From: Eubacteriales bacterium
GTDB lineage: Bacteria; Bacillota; Clostridia; Oscillospirales; Butyricicoccaceae
NCBI GenBank assembly: GCA_030539335.1
Contig: JAUNSG010000006.1
Coordinates: 62,001-126,000, forward strand
Direction of reading: 5' to 3'
Length of the DNA stretch: 64,000 bases
The notes under the pieces were generated by a model. That model did not search any database and was not told where the DNA came from. It was given only the letters and a program-made list of their open reading frames with translations. The number at the start of each line of letters is the position of its first letter. The first letter of the stretch is position 1. Made by a program: the position numbers and the translations under genes. Positions 19,557 to 54,449 of this stretch are shown in pieces.

Positions 19557-21950
19557 TTATTTAAATTCCACAATTGTTACACCAAGATCTCCCTCACCGT
19601 ACCGTCCATTGCGGATGCTGCGGATGTGCTTATCATGCCGCAGATGCTCCTGTACCGCCGCACGCAGCGCCCCGGTTCCCTTGCCGTGGATGATCGTCGC
19701 GACATCCAGCCGTGCCATCAGACAGTCCGAAATATACCGATCCAGCTCCAGCAATGCTTCCTCTACCATCATGCCGCGGAGATCCAATTCGCTCTTCGCC
19801 ATGGAGCGGCGCACTTCACGCACGCCGCTGGACATACGCTGTACCTTCGTCTGCTTTTTCTTCTGTGGCTGCTCGATCAATTTCAGCTCATTGGCCGGGA
19901 TGTTCATCTTCATAATCCCCGCCTGCACGAAGACATTGCCGTCCTTGTTCTCTGTCTTGAGCACGGTTCCCTTGACGCCGATGTTGACCAGCAGAACCGC
20001 ATCGCCGACCTGGAGCGGACGGTTGGCATCCTGCTCAACCGTCTTTTTCTCGCGCTTGAGCGCTTTCTTTTCCGCCGCAGACAGCGTGCCGCGCAACGCC
20101 GCACGGGCTGCCGCCAGATTCTGCTCTGCCGGATTGACCGCAGACTTCTTTTTGATCTCGTCGAGCTGTGCCATCACGGTGTCGGACGTCATGCGGGCAT
20201 CACGGATGATCTGCTCCGCCTGCCGGCGCGCCCGTTCCAGGATTGCGTCGGTTTCGTCTTCCGTTCGCCCCTTGAGCTGGACAGCCTTATCCTTCTCCGA
20301 CTGCGCGGTGCGGCGCAGACGGTTGGCGTCCTCGCGTTCTTTCTCCAGCTTATGGCGCTCGGTTTCCAGGCGTTCGATAACGTCCTCAAACCGCGCGTTT
20401 TCGGCGGAAATCTGTTCCTTTGCCCGCTCGATAATGGCCGGCGGCAGGCCAAGACGGCGTGAAATAGCGAACGCATTGGACTTGCCCGGAACACCGGTCA
20501 GCAGACGGTAGGTCGGCTGCAGCGTTTTGACATCAAACTCACAGGACGCATTTTCGACACCCTCCGTCGTCAAAGCAAACACCTTCAGCTCGGAGTAATG
20601 CGTCGTCGCCGCGACCAGCGCGCACATCTGACGTCCAAACTCAATGATGGATACCGCCAATGCCGCACCTTCTACCGGGTCGGTTCCGGCGCCCAGTTCG
20701 TCAAACAGGATCAGATCGCCCTGCCGGCATTTTTGCAAAATCGAGACAATATTCTTCATATGCGCAGAGAACGTCGAAAGTGACTGCTCAATGCTCTGTT
20801 CGTCGCCGATATCCGCATAGATATTCTCAAACAGACAGACGCTGCTCTGTTCGTTCGCCGGGATGTGCAGCCCGGCGGAGGTCATCAGACACAGCAGTCC
20901 GAGCGTCTTCAAGCTGACGGTCTTGCCTCCGGTATTCGGACCGGTGATGACGAGTGTGTCATACTGGTCACCGAGGGCGATGTCAATCGGCACCGCCTTC
21001 TTGGGATCGAGCAGCGGATGCCGCGCGCGCAGCAGCGACACGCAGTTTTCCTCGTTGATCTCCGGCGCACAACCGTTGTGACGGAACGAGAGCCGCGCCT
21101 TGGCAAAGATGAAATCCAGTTTGCACAGAACCGCATAGTCCGACTGGATGCCGTCCGCATTGTCCGCAACCTCCGCACTCAGCTCCGCCAGAATGCGCTC
21201 GATTTCCGCCTTTTCCTTGCCCTGCAGCACTTTAATCTGGTTGTTGGCATCCACCACCTGCGCCGGCTCGATGAACAGGGTCGCGCCCGAAGAAGAGACG
21301 TCGTGTACCATACCCGGCATATCGCCGCGGTGTTCGCTCTTGATCGGGATAACAAAACGTCCATCGCGCTGGGTAATCAGGCTCTCCTGCAAAAATTTCG
21401 AATAGCTCGGTGAGGAAACGATGTGATTGAGTGTTTCTCTCACACGCGCATTCTGCTGCCGCATCTGCCGCCGGATGTTCGCCAATTCGGAGGATGCTAC
21501 ATCCGCAATTTCCTCCTCGCTGATGATCGCACGATTGATCTTCTGTTCCAGATAGCGGTTGGTATGGATGTGTGCAAAATCCTCATCCAGCGTCGTCGGT
21601 TCGTCCTTTTCGAGCTGCTCTTTCCCATATTTGCTGACCTGCATCGCCGCGTGAAGCAGGGATGCCACATCCAGCAGCTCCCGTGTGCTGAGCACGCCAC
21701 CGCGGTCGGCACGGCTCAGCGATGCATTGACCTCACGGATGCCGCCAAAGGCCGGTGTTCCGCTGGTCGTCATCATATGTTTGGCATCGTCCGTCTGTTT
21801 GAGGGCCAGCCGGACATCCTCCACATCATGCATCGGACGCAGGTCACGCGCCTGCTCCTTGGCCTTCCGGCTGACGCACAGCTCGCTCAGCTCGTGGAGG
21901 ATTGTATAATATTCCAGTGTTTTTAAACTTTTTTCCGATAATTTACTCAT
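19557..21950 (-). CDS. mutS2: Endonuclease MutS2
   Basis: MutS2 is a MutS homologue without the mismatch-recognition domain; it acts on branched DNA and, in Bacillus, on collided ribosomes. The 797 residues include a core/clamp region, the ATPase P-loop ITGPNTGGKTVSLKT, Walker B (LILFDELGAGTDP), and a coiled coil of about 100 residues. A C-terminal Smr nuclease domain follows (LDLRGMMVEEALLELDRY, then HGKGTGALR). All expected motifs are present and the length is normal. It follows the flavoprotein gene by 45 nt. Confidence 0.96.
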   Translation of the reverse strand: MSKLSEKSLKTLEYYTILHELSELCVSRKAKEQARDLRPMHDVEDVRLALKQTDDAKHMMTTSGTPAFGGIREVNASLSRADRGGVLSTRELLDVASLLHAAMQVSKYGKEQLEKDEPTTLDEDFAHIHTNRYLEQKINRAIISEEEIADVASSELANIRRQMRQQNARVRETLNHIVSSPSYSKFLQESLITQRDGRFVIPIKSEHRGDMPGMVHDVSSSGATLFIEPAQVVDANNQIKVLQGKEKAEIERILAELSAEVADNADGIQSDYAVLCKLDFIFAKARLSFRHNGCAPEINEENCVSLLRARHPLLDPKKAVPIDIALGDQYDTLVITGPNTGGKTVSLKTLGLLCLMTSAGLHIPANEQSSVCLFENIYADIGDEQSIEQSLSTFSAHMKNIVSILQKCRQGDLILFDELGAGTDPVEGAALAVSIIEFGRQMCALVAATTHYSELKVFALTTEGVENASCEFDVKTLQPTYRLLTGVPGKSNAFAISRRLGLPPAIIERAKEQISAENARFEDVIERLETERHKLEKEREDANRLRRTAQSEKDKAVQLKGRTEDETDAILERARRQAEQIIRDARMTSDTVMAQLDEIKKKSAVNPAEQNLAAARAALRGTLSAAEKKALKREKKTVEQDANRPLQVGDAVLLVNIGVKGTVLKTENKDGNVFVQAGIMKMNIPANELKLIEQPQKKKQTKVQRMSSGVREVRRSMAKSELDLRGMMVEEALLELDRYISDCLMARLDVATIIHGKGTGALRAAVQEHLRHDKHIRSIRNGRYGEGDLGVTIVEFK

Positions 21951-49733: not shown

Positions 49734-49814
49734 AGAGTTGTTATATTTTTGGCAATCAAACACAGGTTGACCGGAGCGCACAGGCCCCGGCACAAATGGG
49801 AGGTTTTGAAAAAT

Positions 49815-51155
49815 ATGGATTATCAGGCACAGTATCAGAGCAAGCTGACCACCGCCGAAAACGCCGTCAAGGGCATCAAGAGCGGCGACTGGATCGACTA
49901 TGGCTGGTGCACCGGCACTCCGGTTGCACTCGACAAGGCACTCGCGGCACGCGCCGATGAGCTGACCGATGTCAACATCCGCGGCGGTATCCTTCTGTGG
50001 GTTCCGGAAATCGCAAAGGTAGAAAATGCTCCTGCGCACTTCTCCTGGAATTCCTGGCATATGAGCGGCATCGAGCGCAAGATGATCGCACAGGGTATGG
50101 CCTATTATGCATCGATCCGCTATTCCGAGCTGCCGCGCTACTACCGCGATCACGTCATCCCGAACGATTACGTCCTCATTCAGGTCGCTCCGATGGATGA
50201 GCATGGTTACTTCAGCTTCGGCCCGAATGCGTCCCATCTGAAGGCAGTCTGCGAATCCAGCAAGCACGTCGTTGTCGAGGTCAACACCAACATGCCGCGC
50301 TGTCTCGGCGGCTTTGAGGATGCGGTTCACATCGATGATGTCGAGATGATCGTCGAAGGCGACAATCCGCCGCTCGGTCAGATGGGCGCCGCTGCCCCAA
50401 CCGAGGTGGACAACGCCGTGGCCAAGCTGATCGTGGAAGAAATCCCGAACGGCGCCTGCCTGCAGCTCGGTATCGGCGGTATGCCAAATGCCGTCGGTTC
50501 GCTGATCGCGCAGTCTGATCTGAAGGATCTGGGCGTACATACCGAAATGTATGTCGATGCTTTCGTCGACATCGCTCGCGCCGGCAAGCTGACCGGTGCC
50601 AAAAAGACCATTGACAAGGGCCGTCAGGCATTCGCGTTTGGCGCTGGCACCCAGAAGCTGTACGACTATGTCAACAACAACCCGGCCTGCATGAGCGCAC
50701 CAGTCAGCTACACAAACGATGCCCGTGTCATTGCGCAGCTGGATAACTTTATCTCCATCAACAATGCGGTCGACATCGACCTGTTCGGCCAGATCAATGC
50801 GGAATCTGCGGGTACAAAGCACATCAGCGGCGCCGGTGGTCAGCTCGATTTTGTCATGGGCGCTTACCTGTCCAATGGTGGCAAGAGTTTCGTGTGCCTG
50901 TCCTCTACCTTTACCACCAGGAGTGGAGAAATGAAGAGCCGTATTCGTCCGACCCTCGCCGAAGGTTCCATTGTTACCGATACCCGTGCGAATACACACT
51001 ATGTCGTCACGGAGTTCGGCAAGGTCTGCCTGAAGGGCATGTCCTCCTGGCAGCGTGCTGAGGCGCTGATCTCTATCGCCCATCCGGATTTCCGCGATCA
51101 GTTAATTTCCGACGCAGAAAAGCTGAAAATCTGGAGACAGAGCAACAAGCGCTAA
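49815..51155 (+). CDS. but: Butyryl-CoA:acetate CoA-transferase
   Basis: This enzyme moves CoA from butyryl-CoA to acetate, the last step of butyrate formation in many gut Clostridia. The 446 residues belong to the class I-like family with 4-hydroxybutyrate CoA-transferase. They carry the conserved blocks [12 protein letters not shown] and A-F-V-D-I-A-R-A-G that are used to target but genes, plus [28 protein letters not shown] (with the probable catalytic Glu) and [20 protein letters not shown]. The ATG at 49815 follows GGGAGG. It is a single-gene unit. Specificity for butyryl-CoA over related acyl-CoAs is inferred. Confidence 0.9.
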
Positions 51156-51169
51156 ACCATCAAAAAAAT

Positions 51170-51197
51170 CCAGTGGGAGGCAGATGCCTCCCACTGG
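51170..51197 (+). terminator. Hairpin after the CoA-transferase gene
   Basis: A perfect 13-bp GC-rich stem (51170-51182 with 51185-51197) has a 2-nt loop, 15 nt after the stop codon. Only TTC follows, so it may protect the mRNA 3' end or pause polymerase ahead of the next hairpin. Confidence 0.55.
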
Positions 51198-51218
51198 TTC
51201 TATCGTATATAATACAAA

Positions 51219-51254
51219 AAACCGCTCTGCGCTACGCAAAGCGGTTTTTCTTTT
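51219..51254. terminator. Bidirectional intrinsic terminator
   Basis: AAACCGCT/AGCGGTTT (51219-51226 with 51240-51247) encloses a TGCG/CGCA stem with a 3-nt loop and one internal mismatch. TTTTTCTTTT follows on the plus strand and TTTTTTG on the minus strand, so it can end both the CoA-transferase mRNA and the opposing minus-strand transcript. Confidence 0.85.
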
Positions 51255-51430
51255 AAAGTACCGTCGTGCAATTGATGCCATCCGTTCTCTTTTCCCGATC
51301 TGAATACCGGAAGCCGAGAGAAAACATCGCGCAGTAAAACGTCCGTCAGCTCCGTCTCACCACTATTGTAACACACAGCAAGCTTTTCCCGTACCCGCTC
51401 CGTGCTTTCTCCCCAATACTTTATGTCCCT

Positions 51431-51459
51431 ATCATACTATAAGTTTCAAAAAAAGTCAA
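51431..51459 (-). promoter_or_regulatory. Promoter-like pair on the minus strand without an assigned gene
   Basis: TTGACT (51454-51459) is 17 nt from TATGAT (51431-51436). A transcript starting about 51424 would run roughly 200 nt to the bidirectional terminator at 51219-51247. Confidence 0.55.
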
Positions 51460-51594: not shown

Positions 51595-52101
51595 ATGACG
51601 TTTGCTGAACGGCTTCACTCCATCCGCCTTGCCCGCGGACTCAAACAAAAGGAAGTGGCTGCGGCCATCGGTATCAGTGAATCCAATTGCAGCATGTACG
51701 AGCATGGCACGCGCGAGCCCGGTCTTTCCAAACTCGTCGATCTGGCCCGTGTGCTGGATGTATCCACTGACTATTTGCTCGGCATTTCTCCAAATAATTC
51801 CAAAATATCAAAATGTGCTGCAACTTTTTCGCATTTTTCCGAGAAGGAACTCGAACAGCTCTGCATCGTTTTCAGCGAAGCCTTTCCCATTCCCCCTTCG
51901 CTGCTGCTGCAGATTCTTTTGCTGTATGTCAACCAAACAAAAACCGTACGTTGTGATGTGGTGGATCATCTTCTGAAGACCAACGCGGCCAATGATCCTC
52001 TCATGCCATCTATCCTGCCGCAGCCCGATCTGACACGGATCCAGTGTGCTCTGGATCTCTTCCGTTCCTATCACGCTTCCCTTTCGGAAGACGGAACCTG
52101 A
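51595..52101 (+). CDS. XRE-family helix-turn-helix transcriptional regulator
   Basis: The 168 residues begin with a Cro/C1-type helix-turn-helix (about 5-60): LHSIRLARGLKQKEVAAAIG, ISESNCSMYEHGTREP and LVDLARVLDVSTDYLLG. The remaining 100 residues are a helical domain of unknown function (FSEKELEQLCIVFSEAFPIP). AAGGAGTAGG precedes the ATG. Its target is not known; it stands alone between the CoA-transferase and ridA, with an unassigned minus-strand unit upstream that it could control. Confidence 0.9.
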   Translation: MTFAERLHSIRLARGLKQKEVAAAIGISESNCSMYEHGTREPGLSKLVDLARVLDVSTDYLLGISPNNSKISKCAATFSHFSEKELEQLCIVFSEAFPIPPSLLLQILLLYVNQTKTVRCDVVDHLLKTNAANDPLMPSILPQPDLTRIQCALDLFRSYHASLSEDGT

Positions 52102-52119
52102 ATATTGTTTTTCCGCAAA

Positions 52120-52151
52120 AAGTCCTCTGCATCCTGCGATGCAGAGGACTT
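52120..52151. terminator. Bidirectional terminator between the XRE gene and ridA
   Basis: A perfect 14-bp stem (52120-52133 with 52138-52151) has a 4-nt loop. On the minus strand TTTTTGC runs off the stem for ridA; on the plus strand a weaker TACTCTTT follows. Confidence 0.8.
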
Positions 52152-52188
52152 TACTCTTTGTGAATTTATTCACTTGCGGCAAACACGC

Positions 52189-52566
52189 TTACTTGACGCA
52201 AATGGTTTCTACTTCCAGCTTCGCGCCCTTTGGCAGGCCAGCCACCGCAAAGCAGGAACGGGCCGGAGCCGCCTCCGGGAAATACTTGCCGTACACCGCA
52301 TTGAATGCCGCGAAATCGCCCAGATCAGCGAGGAAACAGGTCGTCTTGACGACATGGGAGAAGTCGAGTCCTGCCTCTTCCAGAATTGCCGCGATGTTCT
52401 TCATAACCTGCTCTGCCTGTCCTTCGATCGTGTCCGCCGTGATCTCACCGGTTGCCGGATCGATCGGGATCTGACCAGAGGTAAAGACAAAACGGTCGGT
52501 TTCGATTGCCTGGGAGTACGGGCCGATTGCAGCCGGCGCCTTGGATGTGGAAATGACCTTTTTCAT
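52189..52566 (-). CDS. ridA: RidA-family reactive intermediate (enamine/imine) deaminase
   Basis: RidA hydrolyses 2-aminoacrylate and related reactive enamines made by PLP enzymes. The 125-residue YjgF/YER057c/UK114 protein has the A-I-G-P-Y-S-Q-A-I start, F-T-S-G-Q-I-P-I-D-P, VVKTTCFLADLGDFAAFNAVYGKYF and the C-terminal A-R-S-C-F-A-V-A-G-L-P-K-G-A segment with the conserved Arg and Glu (L-E-V-E). A GGAG precedes the ATG. It follows typA by 18 nt and probably shares its mRNA. Confidence 0.96.
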   Translation of the reverse strand: MKKVISTSKAPAAIGPYSQAIETDRFVFTSGQIPIDPATGEITADTIEGQAEQVMKNIAAILEEAGLDFSHVVKTTCFLADLGDFAAFNAVYGKYFPEAAPARSCFAVAGLPKGAKLEVETICVK

Positions 52567-52584
52567 AGCAGTTCGCTCCTTTTC

Positions 52585-54405
52585 TTATTTGTGTGCTTTC
52601 AGCTTTTTCATACGTTCGGTGTTGGACAGAATCGACTTGCGCATCCGGACGCTCTTCGGGGTGATCTCAATCAGCTCATCCTCACCAATGAACTCCAGCG
52701 CCTCTTCGATCGACATCACATGCGGCGGAATCAGGCGAAGCGCATCGTCCGAGCCGGATGCACGGGTGTTGGTCAACTGCTTTTTCTTGCAGACATTGAC
52801 CGCCATGTCCTCATTCTTCGGCGAAACACCGATGATCATGCCCTCATAGACCTCTGTACCCGCGCCTATAAACAGGGTTCCGCGCTCCTGCGCATTGAAC
52901 AGACCGTAGGTGACTGCGGTACCGGTCTCAAACGCGATCAGAGAGCCGGTCGCACGCTTGCTGATCTCGCCCTTGTACGGCTGATATTCGTAGAATACCG
53001 AGCTCATGACGCCCTCACCACGGGTATCGGTCAGGAATTCGGTCTTATAGCCGAACAGGCCGCGTGCCGGAATCAGGAATTCCACACGCATACGGTCGCC
53101 CTGCGGCGCCATATGCTGCAGCTCACCACGACGTGCGCCCATCTTTTCCATGACGGAACCGAGACACTCCGCCGGGACATCGGCCACCATGCGTTCCATC
53201 GGTTCATAGGTCTTGCCATCGATCTGCTTGAACAGGGCCCGTGGCGCACCGACCTGGAATTCATAGCCCTCACGGCGCAGAGTCTCGATCAGGATCGACA
53301 AGTGCATCTCACCGCGTCCGGCAACCCGGAAGGTATCCGTCGTCTCCGTCTCGTGTACACGCAGGGAAACGTCCTTGAGCAGCTCCCGATGCAGGCGCTC
53401 ACGAATCTGACGGGAGGTGACAAATTTGCCCTCGCGTCCGGCGAACGGCGAGTTATTGACGGAGAAATACATTTCCACCGTCGGCTCAGAAATCTTGACA
53501 AACGGCAGCGGCTCAATCTGCGTCGGGGAGCACAGCGTATCGCCAATCGTGACGTTCTCGATACCGGAGACACAGACAATATCGCCGGCGGCAATCTCTT
53601 CAATCGGGGTATGACCCAGGCTGTCGATGGTGTACATCGAGACCGCCTTTGCCTTATACGGCTCATTGTGACGATTGTAGTTGCAGACCATCAGCTCCTG
53701 GCCGACATGCATCCGGCCACGCTCTACACGGCCGATCGCAATGCGTCCGACGTAATCGTTGTAGTCGATGGAAGAAACCAGCATTTGCAGTTCGCCGTCC
53801 GGATTGACATGCGGAGCCGGGATGTGGGACAGAATGGTTTCAAACAGCGGGGTAAGATCCTCACCGAGCTGATTCGGCGACGTGGAAGCCGTGCCGTCGC
53901 GTCCAGAACAGTACAGAATCGGGCTGTCCAACTGCTCATCCGACGCATCCAGCGTCAGGAGCAGCTCCAAGACCTCATCGCCGACATCGCCCAGGCGGGC
54001 ATCCGGACGATCGATCTTATTGACAACAATGATGATCTTATGTCCAAATTCCAATGCCTTCTGCAAAACGAACCGCGTCTGCGGCATCGGTCCCTCAAAG
54101 GCATCAACCAGCAGGATAACACCATCCACCATCTTCAGGATGCGCTCTACCTCACCGGAAAAGTCCGCATGGCCCGGGGTATCAACAATATTGATCTTGG
54201 TATCCTTATAATGCACAGACGTATTCTTTGCCAGAATCGTAATGCCGCGCTCTCGCTCCAGATCATTGCTGTCCATGACACGATCCTCCACAACCTGATT
54301 GGTACGGAAGGCACCGCCCTGCTTGAGCATCTGGTCAACCAACGTCGTCTTACCATGGTCAACGTGTGCGATAATGGCAATGTTTCTCAAATCTTCTCGA
54401 ATCAT
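52585..54405 (-). CDS. typA: Ribosome-associated GTPase TypA/BipA
   Basis: TypA is an EF-G-like translational GTPase that binds the ribosome under stress and helps 50S assembly at low temperature. The 606 residues contain G1 AHVDHGKTT, the switch I R-E-R-G-I-T, G3 D-T-P-G-H-A-D-F, G4 N-K-I-D, then domains II, III and V. The BipA-specific C-terminal domain has ARGLFGYKTEFLTDTRGEG. I used the ATG at 54405, 5 nt from GGAGG; an ATG four codons upstream overlaps that ribosome-binding site. It has its own promoter. Confidence 0.97.
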   Translation of the reverse strand: MIREDLRNIAIIAHVDHGKTTLVDQMLKQGGAFRTNQVVEDRVMDSNDLERERGITILAKNTSVHYKDTKINIVDTPGHADFSGEVERILKMVDGVILLVDAFEGPMPQTRFVLQKALEFGHKIIIVVNKIDRPDARLGDVGDEVLELLLTLDASDEQLDSPILYCSGRDGTASTSPNQLGEDLTPLFETILSHIPAPHVNPDGELQMLVSSIDYNDYVGRIAIGRVERGRMHVGQELMVCNYNRHNEPYKAKAVSMYTIDSLGHTPIEEIAAGDIVCVSGIENVTIGDTLCSPTQIEPLPFVKISEPTVEMYFSVNNSPFAGREGKFVTSRQIRERLHRELLKDVSLRVHETETTDTFRVAGRGEMHLSILIETLRREGYEFQVGAPRALFKQIDGKTYEPMERMVADVPAECLGSVMEKMGARRGELQHMAPQGDRMRVEFLIPARGLFGYKTEFLTDTRGEGVMSSVFYEYQPYKGEISKRATGSLIAFETGTAVTYGLFNAQERGTLFIGAGTEVYEGMIIGVSPKNEDMAVNVCKKKQLTNTRASGSDDALRLIPPHVMSIEEALEFIGEDELIEITPKSVRMRKSILSNTERMKKLKAHK

Positions 54406-54449
54406 ATTATCCTCCAAAATGGAATGATTTCTATTTTTTACTCTTTCTT

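Follow-up and report, generated by a model that had tools for sequence, protein, structure and literature searches.

The feature described here lies on the minus strand of the window (the whole 64,000-nucleotide stretch that was analysed), where it converges with a butyryl-CoA:acetate CoA-transferase gene on one side and diverges from an Xre-like regulator gene on the other (Table 1; the TIGR03948 score of the CoA-transferase was computed on a longer frame, 49749-51155). The sequence-only reading had proposed an unassigned transcription unit at this place, led by the promoter TTGACT-17-TATGAT at 51431-51459 and closed by a bidirectional terminator. Both signals are present: a promoter stands at the equivalent place in all 11 copies of the element described below, and the terminator is a 16-pair hairpin with a T tail, running from 51250 to 51216 and carrying a T run on both strands. 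A second terminator-like hairpin lies between this terminator and the CoA-transferase gene and is perhaps a back-up stop ahead of that gene.

Table 1. Features of the minus-strand RNA locus and its neighbours (window coordinates)
Feature	Position	Strand	Basis or remark
Butyryl-CoA:acetate CoA-transferase gene, convergent neighbour	49815-51155	+	TIGR03948, 867 bits against a cut-off of 674.8
Second terminator-like hairpin, 12 pairs	51170-51197	-	T run on minus strand; between RNA terminator and CoA-transferase gene
58-aa open frame with GTG start, judged no gene	51200-51376	-	Frame not conserved
Intrinsic terminator, 16 pairs, T tail	51216-51250	-	Sequence shows a T run on each strand
Structured RNA body, 173 nt	51254-51426	-	Fold, G004 alignment, copies in 11 of 12 genus genomes
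Helix P1, 3′ strand CGGUACUUUA	51254-51263	-	Predicted fold
Hairpin P4, loop AUUCAG at 51300-51305	51286-51319	-	Predicted fold
Hairpin P3	51332-51362	-	Only in the window subtype (window and G004)
Hairpin P2, purine-rich loop ACGGGAAAA at 51384-51392	51370-51406	-	Predicted fold; loop AAGGGGAAA in G004
Helix P1, 5′ strand UAAAGUAUUG	51414-51423	-	Predicted fold
Sigma-A-type promoter TTGACT-17-TATGAT	51431-51459	-	Start expected near 51424-51426
HTH_3 (Xre-like) regulator gene, divergent neighbour	51595-52101	+	PF01381

By themselves, the promoter and terminator prove little, since neither kind of site exceeds its rate in shuffled sequence: a simple scan of 3 kb found one promoter-like site against 2.3 expected and four terminator-like sites against 3.7 expected. 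They are raised above chance because both are conserved in relatives and because the body between them folds strongly. Including the terminator, the minus strand reaches a predicted -78.7 kcal/mol, as against -55.9 kcal/mol in shuffled sequences (z -5.77; none of 200 as low), and in this fold the ends of the body pair with each other (UAAAGUAUUG with CGGUACUUUA), enclosing the three hairpins P2, P3 and P4. The element is present as a single copy in its own genome (G000), as checked by DNA search.

Conservation in close relatives, on which the earlier reading had staked its proposal, was indeed found: of the 12 genomes of the genus that were searched, 11 have a copy, and it sits in the same neighbourhood. 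One of them, in G004, was the only alignable copy that a DNA search of the genus gave with the window as query, and its alignment takes in the neighbouring Xre gene (71% identity over query positions 3-698). Another was recognised in G001, by its matching ends and loop motifs, when the DNA downstream of the CoA-transferase gene was read; of 87 family genomes, only three (G000, G001 and G004) have the spaced motif ATTCAGATC..ACGGTACTTT, each time at the 3′ flank of the CoA-transferase gene, while its reversed control gave no matches in the same 87 genomes. With the G001 copy as query, a DNA search then returned copies in G002, G003, G005, G006, G007, G008, G010 and G011 (E values of 3e-15 to 0.005, the G001 self-match being 9e-115). 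This search was run to E 10, and among the matches listed are at least 85 of the 87 family genomes; matches beyond the genus begin at E 0.0065, and the copy count covers the genus only, the nine genus copies being kept for their promoter, P1, loop and terminator. Neither of our two covariance models, R1 (window type) and R2 (main type), matches the twelfth genome, G009, which is 65% complete. Its contig bearing the CoA-transferase gene starts inside modC, and the expected RNA site would lie past the contig end, because the RNA lies upstream of modA in the five genomes with modABC.

From the comparison of the copies, it is clear that the same parts recur. All 11 have the promoter, a 5′ AU[A/G]AAGUA that pairs with a 3′ ACGGUACUUU, and a predicted terminator hairpin; the 5′ strand of P1 reads AUAAAGUA in ten copies and AUGAAGUA in G002, and the 3′ motif ACGGUACUUU is invariant. 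The P2 loop AAGGGGAAAG is exact in 10 of the 11, the exception being the window itself, with ACGGGAAAAG, and the P4 loop, which is AUACAGA-like in most main-type copies, has a conserved, unpaired CAGA. Each of the nine copies of this main type (G001, G002, G003, G005, G006, G007, G008, G010 and G011) has the promoter with 12 of 12 consensus letters and a spacer of 16 (10 of 12 and 17 in the window and G004), followed by 5′ AU[A/G]AAGUAC, the P2 loop AAGGGGAAAG, 3′ GACGGUACUUU and the terminator, whose loop is GUAGGAGAG in eight of them and GAUGGAGAG in G001. The joint motif was never met in 2000 shuffles of each of four copies tested, even with two mismatches allowed in the P2 loop.

The sequence-only reading had also called for a covariation search in relatives, and this was carried out on the nine main-type copies, which have pairwise identities of 55-89% (mean 69%). 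In their consensus fold, 23 of 58 predicted pairs have changed at both positions, and with an added helix AUUUCC/GGAAAU beside P1, 24 of 60 have done so (50 cells; equalled in none of 500 shuffles); 3 of the 14 pairs of the terminator stem are altered in this way. The covariation score is 0.380, compared with 0.265 in shuffles, none of 500 being as high, and 91.2% of cells are paired, a figure that falls to 31-44% once the partners are slid. One of the five measures used, the number of further pair types, was not unusual (equalled in 46 of 500 shuffles). These shuffle counts overstate the significance, because the nine covarying copies are related. Between the window and G004, both sides have changed at 5 of 40 predicted pairs, and P2 has 4 of its 13 pairs altered on both sides. 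The element thus has its own promoter and terminator together with a conserved and covarying fold, as a stand-alone structured small RNA should.

The window and G004 copies form a divergent subtype, which has the extra hairpin P3 and lacks both the unpaired CAUGUGAGACG strand and the conserved terminator loop of the main type. A covariance model built on either subtype does not match the other with confidence: R1 gives 9 bits at the G001 copy, whereas R2 gives 13.8 bits (E 0.074) at G004 and only a wrong-register 13.6 bits at the window. Nevertheless, we join the two, because the ends are identical, the P2 loop (exact in G004) and the promoter position are common to both, the P4 loop of the window subtype matches that of G001 letter for letter, and place and direction equal those in G001, G002 and G010. 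A tree of the 12 CoA-transferases separates G000 and G004 from the other ten on a branch with a support of 100/100; this split matches that of the RNA, and therefore the subtypes follow descent. The window copy, with its P2 loop off consensus and without the conserved terminator loop, may thus have drifted in function. A second closing helix beside P1, like that of the main type, is not claimed for the window subtype, as its energy cost would be about 8 kcal/mol for the window and 5 kcal/mol for G004.

The two models and several sequence patterns were also used to look for copies beyond the genus. R1 matched 2 of 87 family genomes, both of them its source copies, and R2 matched 6 of 394 order genomes, all of them in the same genus and among the copies from which the model was built; G000 and G004, which this sample also contained, were not matched. 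On 40 chosen family genomes, R2 at E up to 1 gave ten matches, nine of them model members; a match in G067 (19.9 bits, E 0.046) was judged to be chance on reading the sequence. Among 391 class genomes, R2 matched only G1164, over a partial stretch of 38 nt (E 0.077). These large searches used stricter filters with few candidates scored per genome, so that distant relatives can be missed, and the restriction to the genus is provisional because the searches were tuned to close relatives. An exact pattern found nothing in a phylum sample of 398, a weak result given that its allowed gap suits only four of the nine main-type copies. A scan of GTDB contigs with a window-type pattern, which does not fit most main-type P4 loops, yielded 36 stretches, of which only L050 (matching the G004 copy) combines, by eye, the P2 loop with a terminator and a P4 stem that pairs. 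The remaining 35 were taken as chance; among the scan stretches, L033, L042, L047, L055 and L064 passed a loose test for the promoter, and L061 and L065 one for the loop. Three viral-contig matches, which amount to a single, nearly identical sequence that R2 scores at no more than 5.5 bits, were rejected. So was an R1 match at 20835-20984 on the plus strand (21.9 bits, E 0.0016), which falls within an opposite-strand frame of 797 aa and was put down to chance.

The genes around the RNA have been compared across the genus. In five of the 11 copies (window, G004, G001, G002 and G010), the RNA converges straight on the CoA-transferase gene, and no gene was identified in the space that separates them. 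Together with the T run on both strands of the terminator hairpin, this arrangement would suit a cis-antisense or 3′-overlapping regulator of the CoA-transferase mRNA, acting through tail-to-tail convergence and a common terminator. However, the RNA is kept where other genes intervene, namely xpt in G003 and modABC followed by xpt in G005, G006, G007 and G008; the G011 copy likewise faces modABC and xpt, after which its contig ends. The conservation, moreover, sits in the body and loops and not in an overlap with coding sequence. Since adjacency to the CoA-transferase gene is restricted to 5 of 11 copies, antisense control is not the conserved role, and we consider such a regulator quite improbable. 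The earlier claim that the product converges on the CoA-transferase mRNA hence holds for the arrangement in the window, but not as a conserved link.

In G005, G006, G007, G008 and G011, modABC follows the RNA and its terminator in the same orientation, as would suit a leader or riboswitch, for instance one for modA with the terminator as its expression platform. In G007, where modA, modB and xpt score above their family cut-offs and the modC-like ATPase passes none, a promoter TTGACA-16-TATACT stands between the RNA terminator and modA; the RNA is probably not a modA leader, because modA appears to own a promoter in this sole case examined. A leader for any gene is unlikely, since no co-directional downstream gene is common to the 11 copies, which fall into three arrangements: five are followed by a convergent gene, the CoA-transferase gene (window, G004, G001, G002 and G010), one by xpt (G003), and five by modABC and then xpt. 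Neither strand of P1 overlaps the terminator hairpin in any of the three copies that were folded, and no Rfam family matches at the RNA. This reading is therefore very improbable.

The comparison with known RNA families was made with Rfam, where no family reaches its gathering score at the RNA (window, L003, L009 and L069-L077), the only match elsewhere in the window being a tRNA. The two best sub-threshold matches, to sraA (22.8 bits of 56 needed) and C0465 (19.5 bits of 40 needed), sit on terminator hairpins and were judged to be chance, and the main-type copy of G003 matches nothing at E up to 10. A search of the literature, for which the genus names were partly guessed, gave no paper that deals with this RNA and no title about small RNAs from these bacteria. 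The main text of PMC8040213 has none of the terms sought for this RNA, which could be an unnamed entry in the supplements of that paper.

A second 6S RNA, binding RNA polymerase, deserves separate mention, since B. subtilis has two 6S RNAs. The new RNA is like 6S RNA in its size (near 180 nt, or about 180-190 nt), its own promoter, its pairing 5′ and 3′ ends and the lack of an evident neighbour-gene target. It is unlike it in its fold, which is branched with conserved loops, both in the consensus of nine copies and in each of three copies folded singly, and not a rod with a central bubble, and in the lack of a match to the 6S model (RF00013) at either the window locus or the G003 copy at E up to 10. 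A recognised 6S RNA gene of this genome lies outside the window, at G000:C8:67963-68153 (69.9 bits), and a 6S RNA was recognised in 8 of the 12 genus genomes. A second 6S is, on this evidence, highly improbable.

A short protein gene or gene remnant had been among the readings offered earlier, on the strength of an open frame of about 75 codons said to have no standard start. The open run is in fact 78 codons long, and a GTG at 51376 does provide a start, giving 58 aa. Runs as long were found in 56 of 2000 dinucleotide shuffles; other copies have long open runs in differing frames (66 to 74 codons in G001, G002, G004, G008 and G011, that of G004 being 66), but in G005 none of the forward frames stays open for more than 37 of 73 codons. 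When the nine main-type copies are compared in pairs, 164 of 181 gap runs have a length that three does not divide (the pairs are not independent). With no conserved reading frame, and with covariation seen instead, a coding origin is barely conceivable.

Of the readings offered at the outset (a small RNA, a remnant or an odd-start gene), it is the first that conservation and covariation bear out. From its sequence features, the minus-strand unit is thus very probably a gene for a structured non-coding RNA, and it is likely to be a stand-alone gene whose product, if expressed as predicted, would act in trans, whatever its partner. The new RNA resembles the trans-acting base-pairing small RNAs of Firmicutes in its intergenic place, its housekeeping promoter, its intrinsic terminator and its conserved exposed loops, and it differs in that these loops are purine-rich, not C-rich.

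We propose that RNA polymerase with the housekeeping sigma factor would start near 51425 and make an RNA of about 210 nt, in which P1 would join the ends of the body and enclose hairpins that present the conserved loops, followed by the intrinsic terminator. This stable folded RNA would then act in trans via its loops, namely AAGGGGAAAG in P2 and AGGAGA in the main-type terminator hairpin, and the exposed purine-rich loops can tentatively be regarded as contact sites. Pairing ends and exposed purine-rich loops, in a stable RNA transcribed on its own, would suit a trans-acting small RNA or one that binds protein. Since the two loops have a common core, AGGRGA, repeated contact with one partner is suggested. 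Such loops would pair with a pyrimidine-rich target RNA, which could in principle include the anti-Shine-Dalgarno end of 16S rRNA, or hold a purine-preferring protein; candidate partners would be components of the ribosome, a protein that binds purines, or a set of mRNAs carrying CUUUCCCCUU-like sites.

The AGGRGA loops recall those of CsrB/RsmZ-type RNAs, which hold CsrA: AGGGGA is in P2 in all nine main-type copies and AGGAGA in the terminator hairpin in eight. The new RNA, however, has only two such loops, not many, and in the window subtype at most one GGA-type hairpin loop. A search for CsrA (PF02599) was negative in all 12 genomes of the genus and positive in 3 of 14 controls (E. coli, B. 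subtilis and T. maritima), and a CsrA sponge was accordingly rejected. On paper, both the AAGGGGA and the AGGAGA loop could base-pair with the anti-Shine-Dalgarno sequence at the end of 16S rRNA. That the RNA is a genus-specific regulator whose two Shine-Dalgarno-like loops touch the ribosome or a purine-binding protein is a specific reading that we put forward as unlikely in its full form. If it were true, this would be a new class of RNA tuning translation in these anaerobes, encoded beside anaerobic nucleotide-reductase and butyrate genes, and a case of control by RNA in bacteria where no CsrA has been recognised. An unassigned intergenic stretch has in any case become a defined RNA gene in 11 of 12 genomes of a CoA-transferase-carrying genus, whose members are probably butyrate-forming bacteria, and the conserved promoter, closing helix and loops suggest a role worth keeping.

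On the far side of the RNA from the CoA-transferase gene, nrdD-nrdG lies directly upstream on the same strand in all nine main-type genomes (NrdD and NrdG were named by family models in G007), while the window and G004 have the Xre-like regulator, a RidA-type protein and typA. The nrdD-nrdG block is thus replaced by these three genes (51595-54417 in the window), a rearrangement beside the RNA.

In the main type, the nearly invariant unpaired strand between P1 and the adjoining helix reads CAUGUGAGACG, with UAUGUGAGACG in G006 and G011 and UAUGUAAGACG in G008. This strand spells AUG-UGA (AUG-UAA in G008), as seen for example in L101:3617-3787 (+), and may be a start-stop site for the ribosome or a product of chance.
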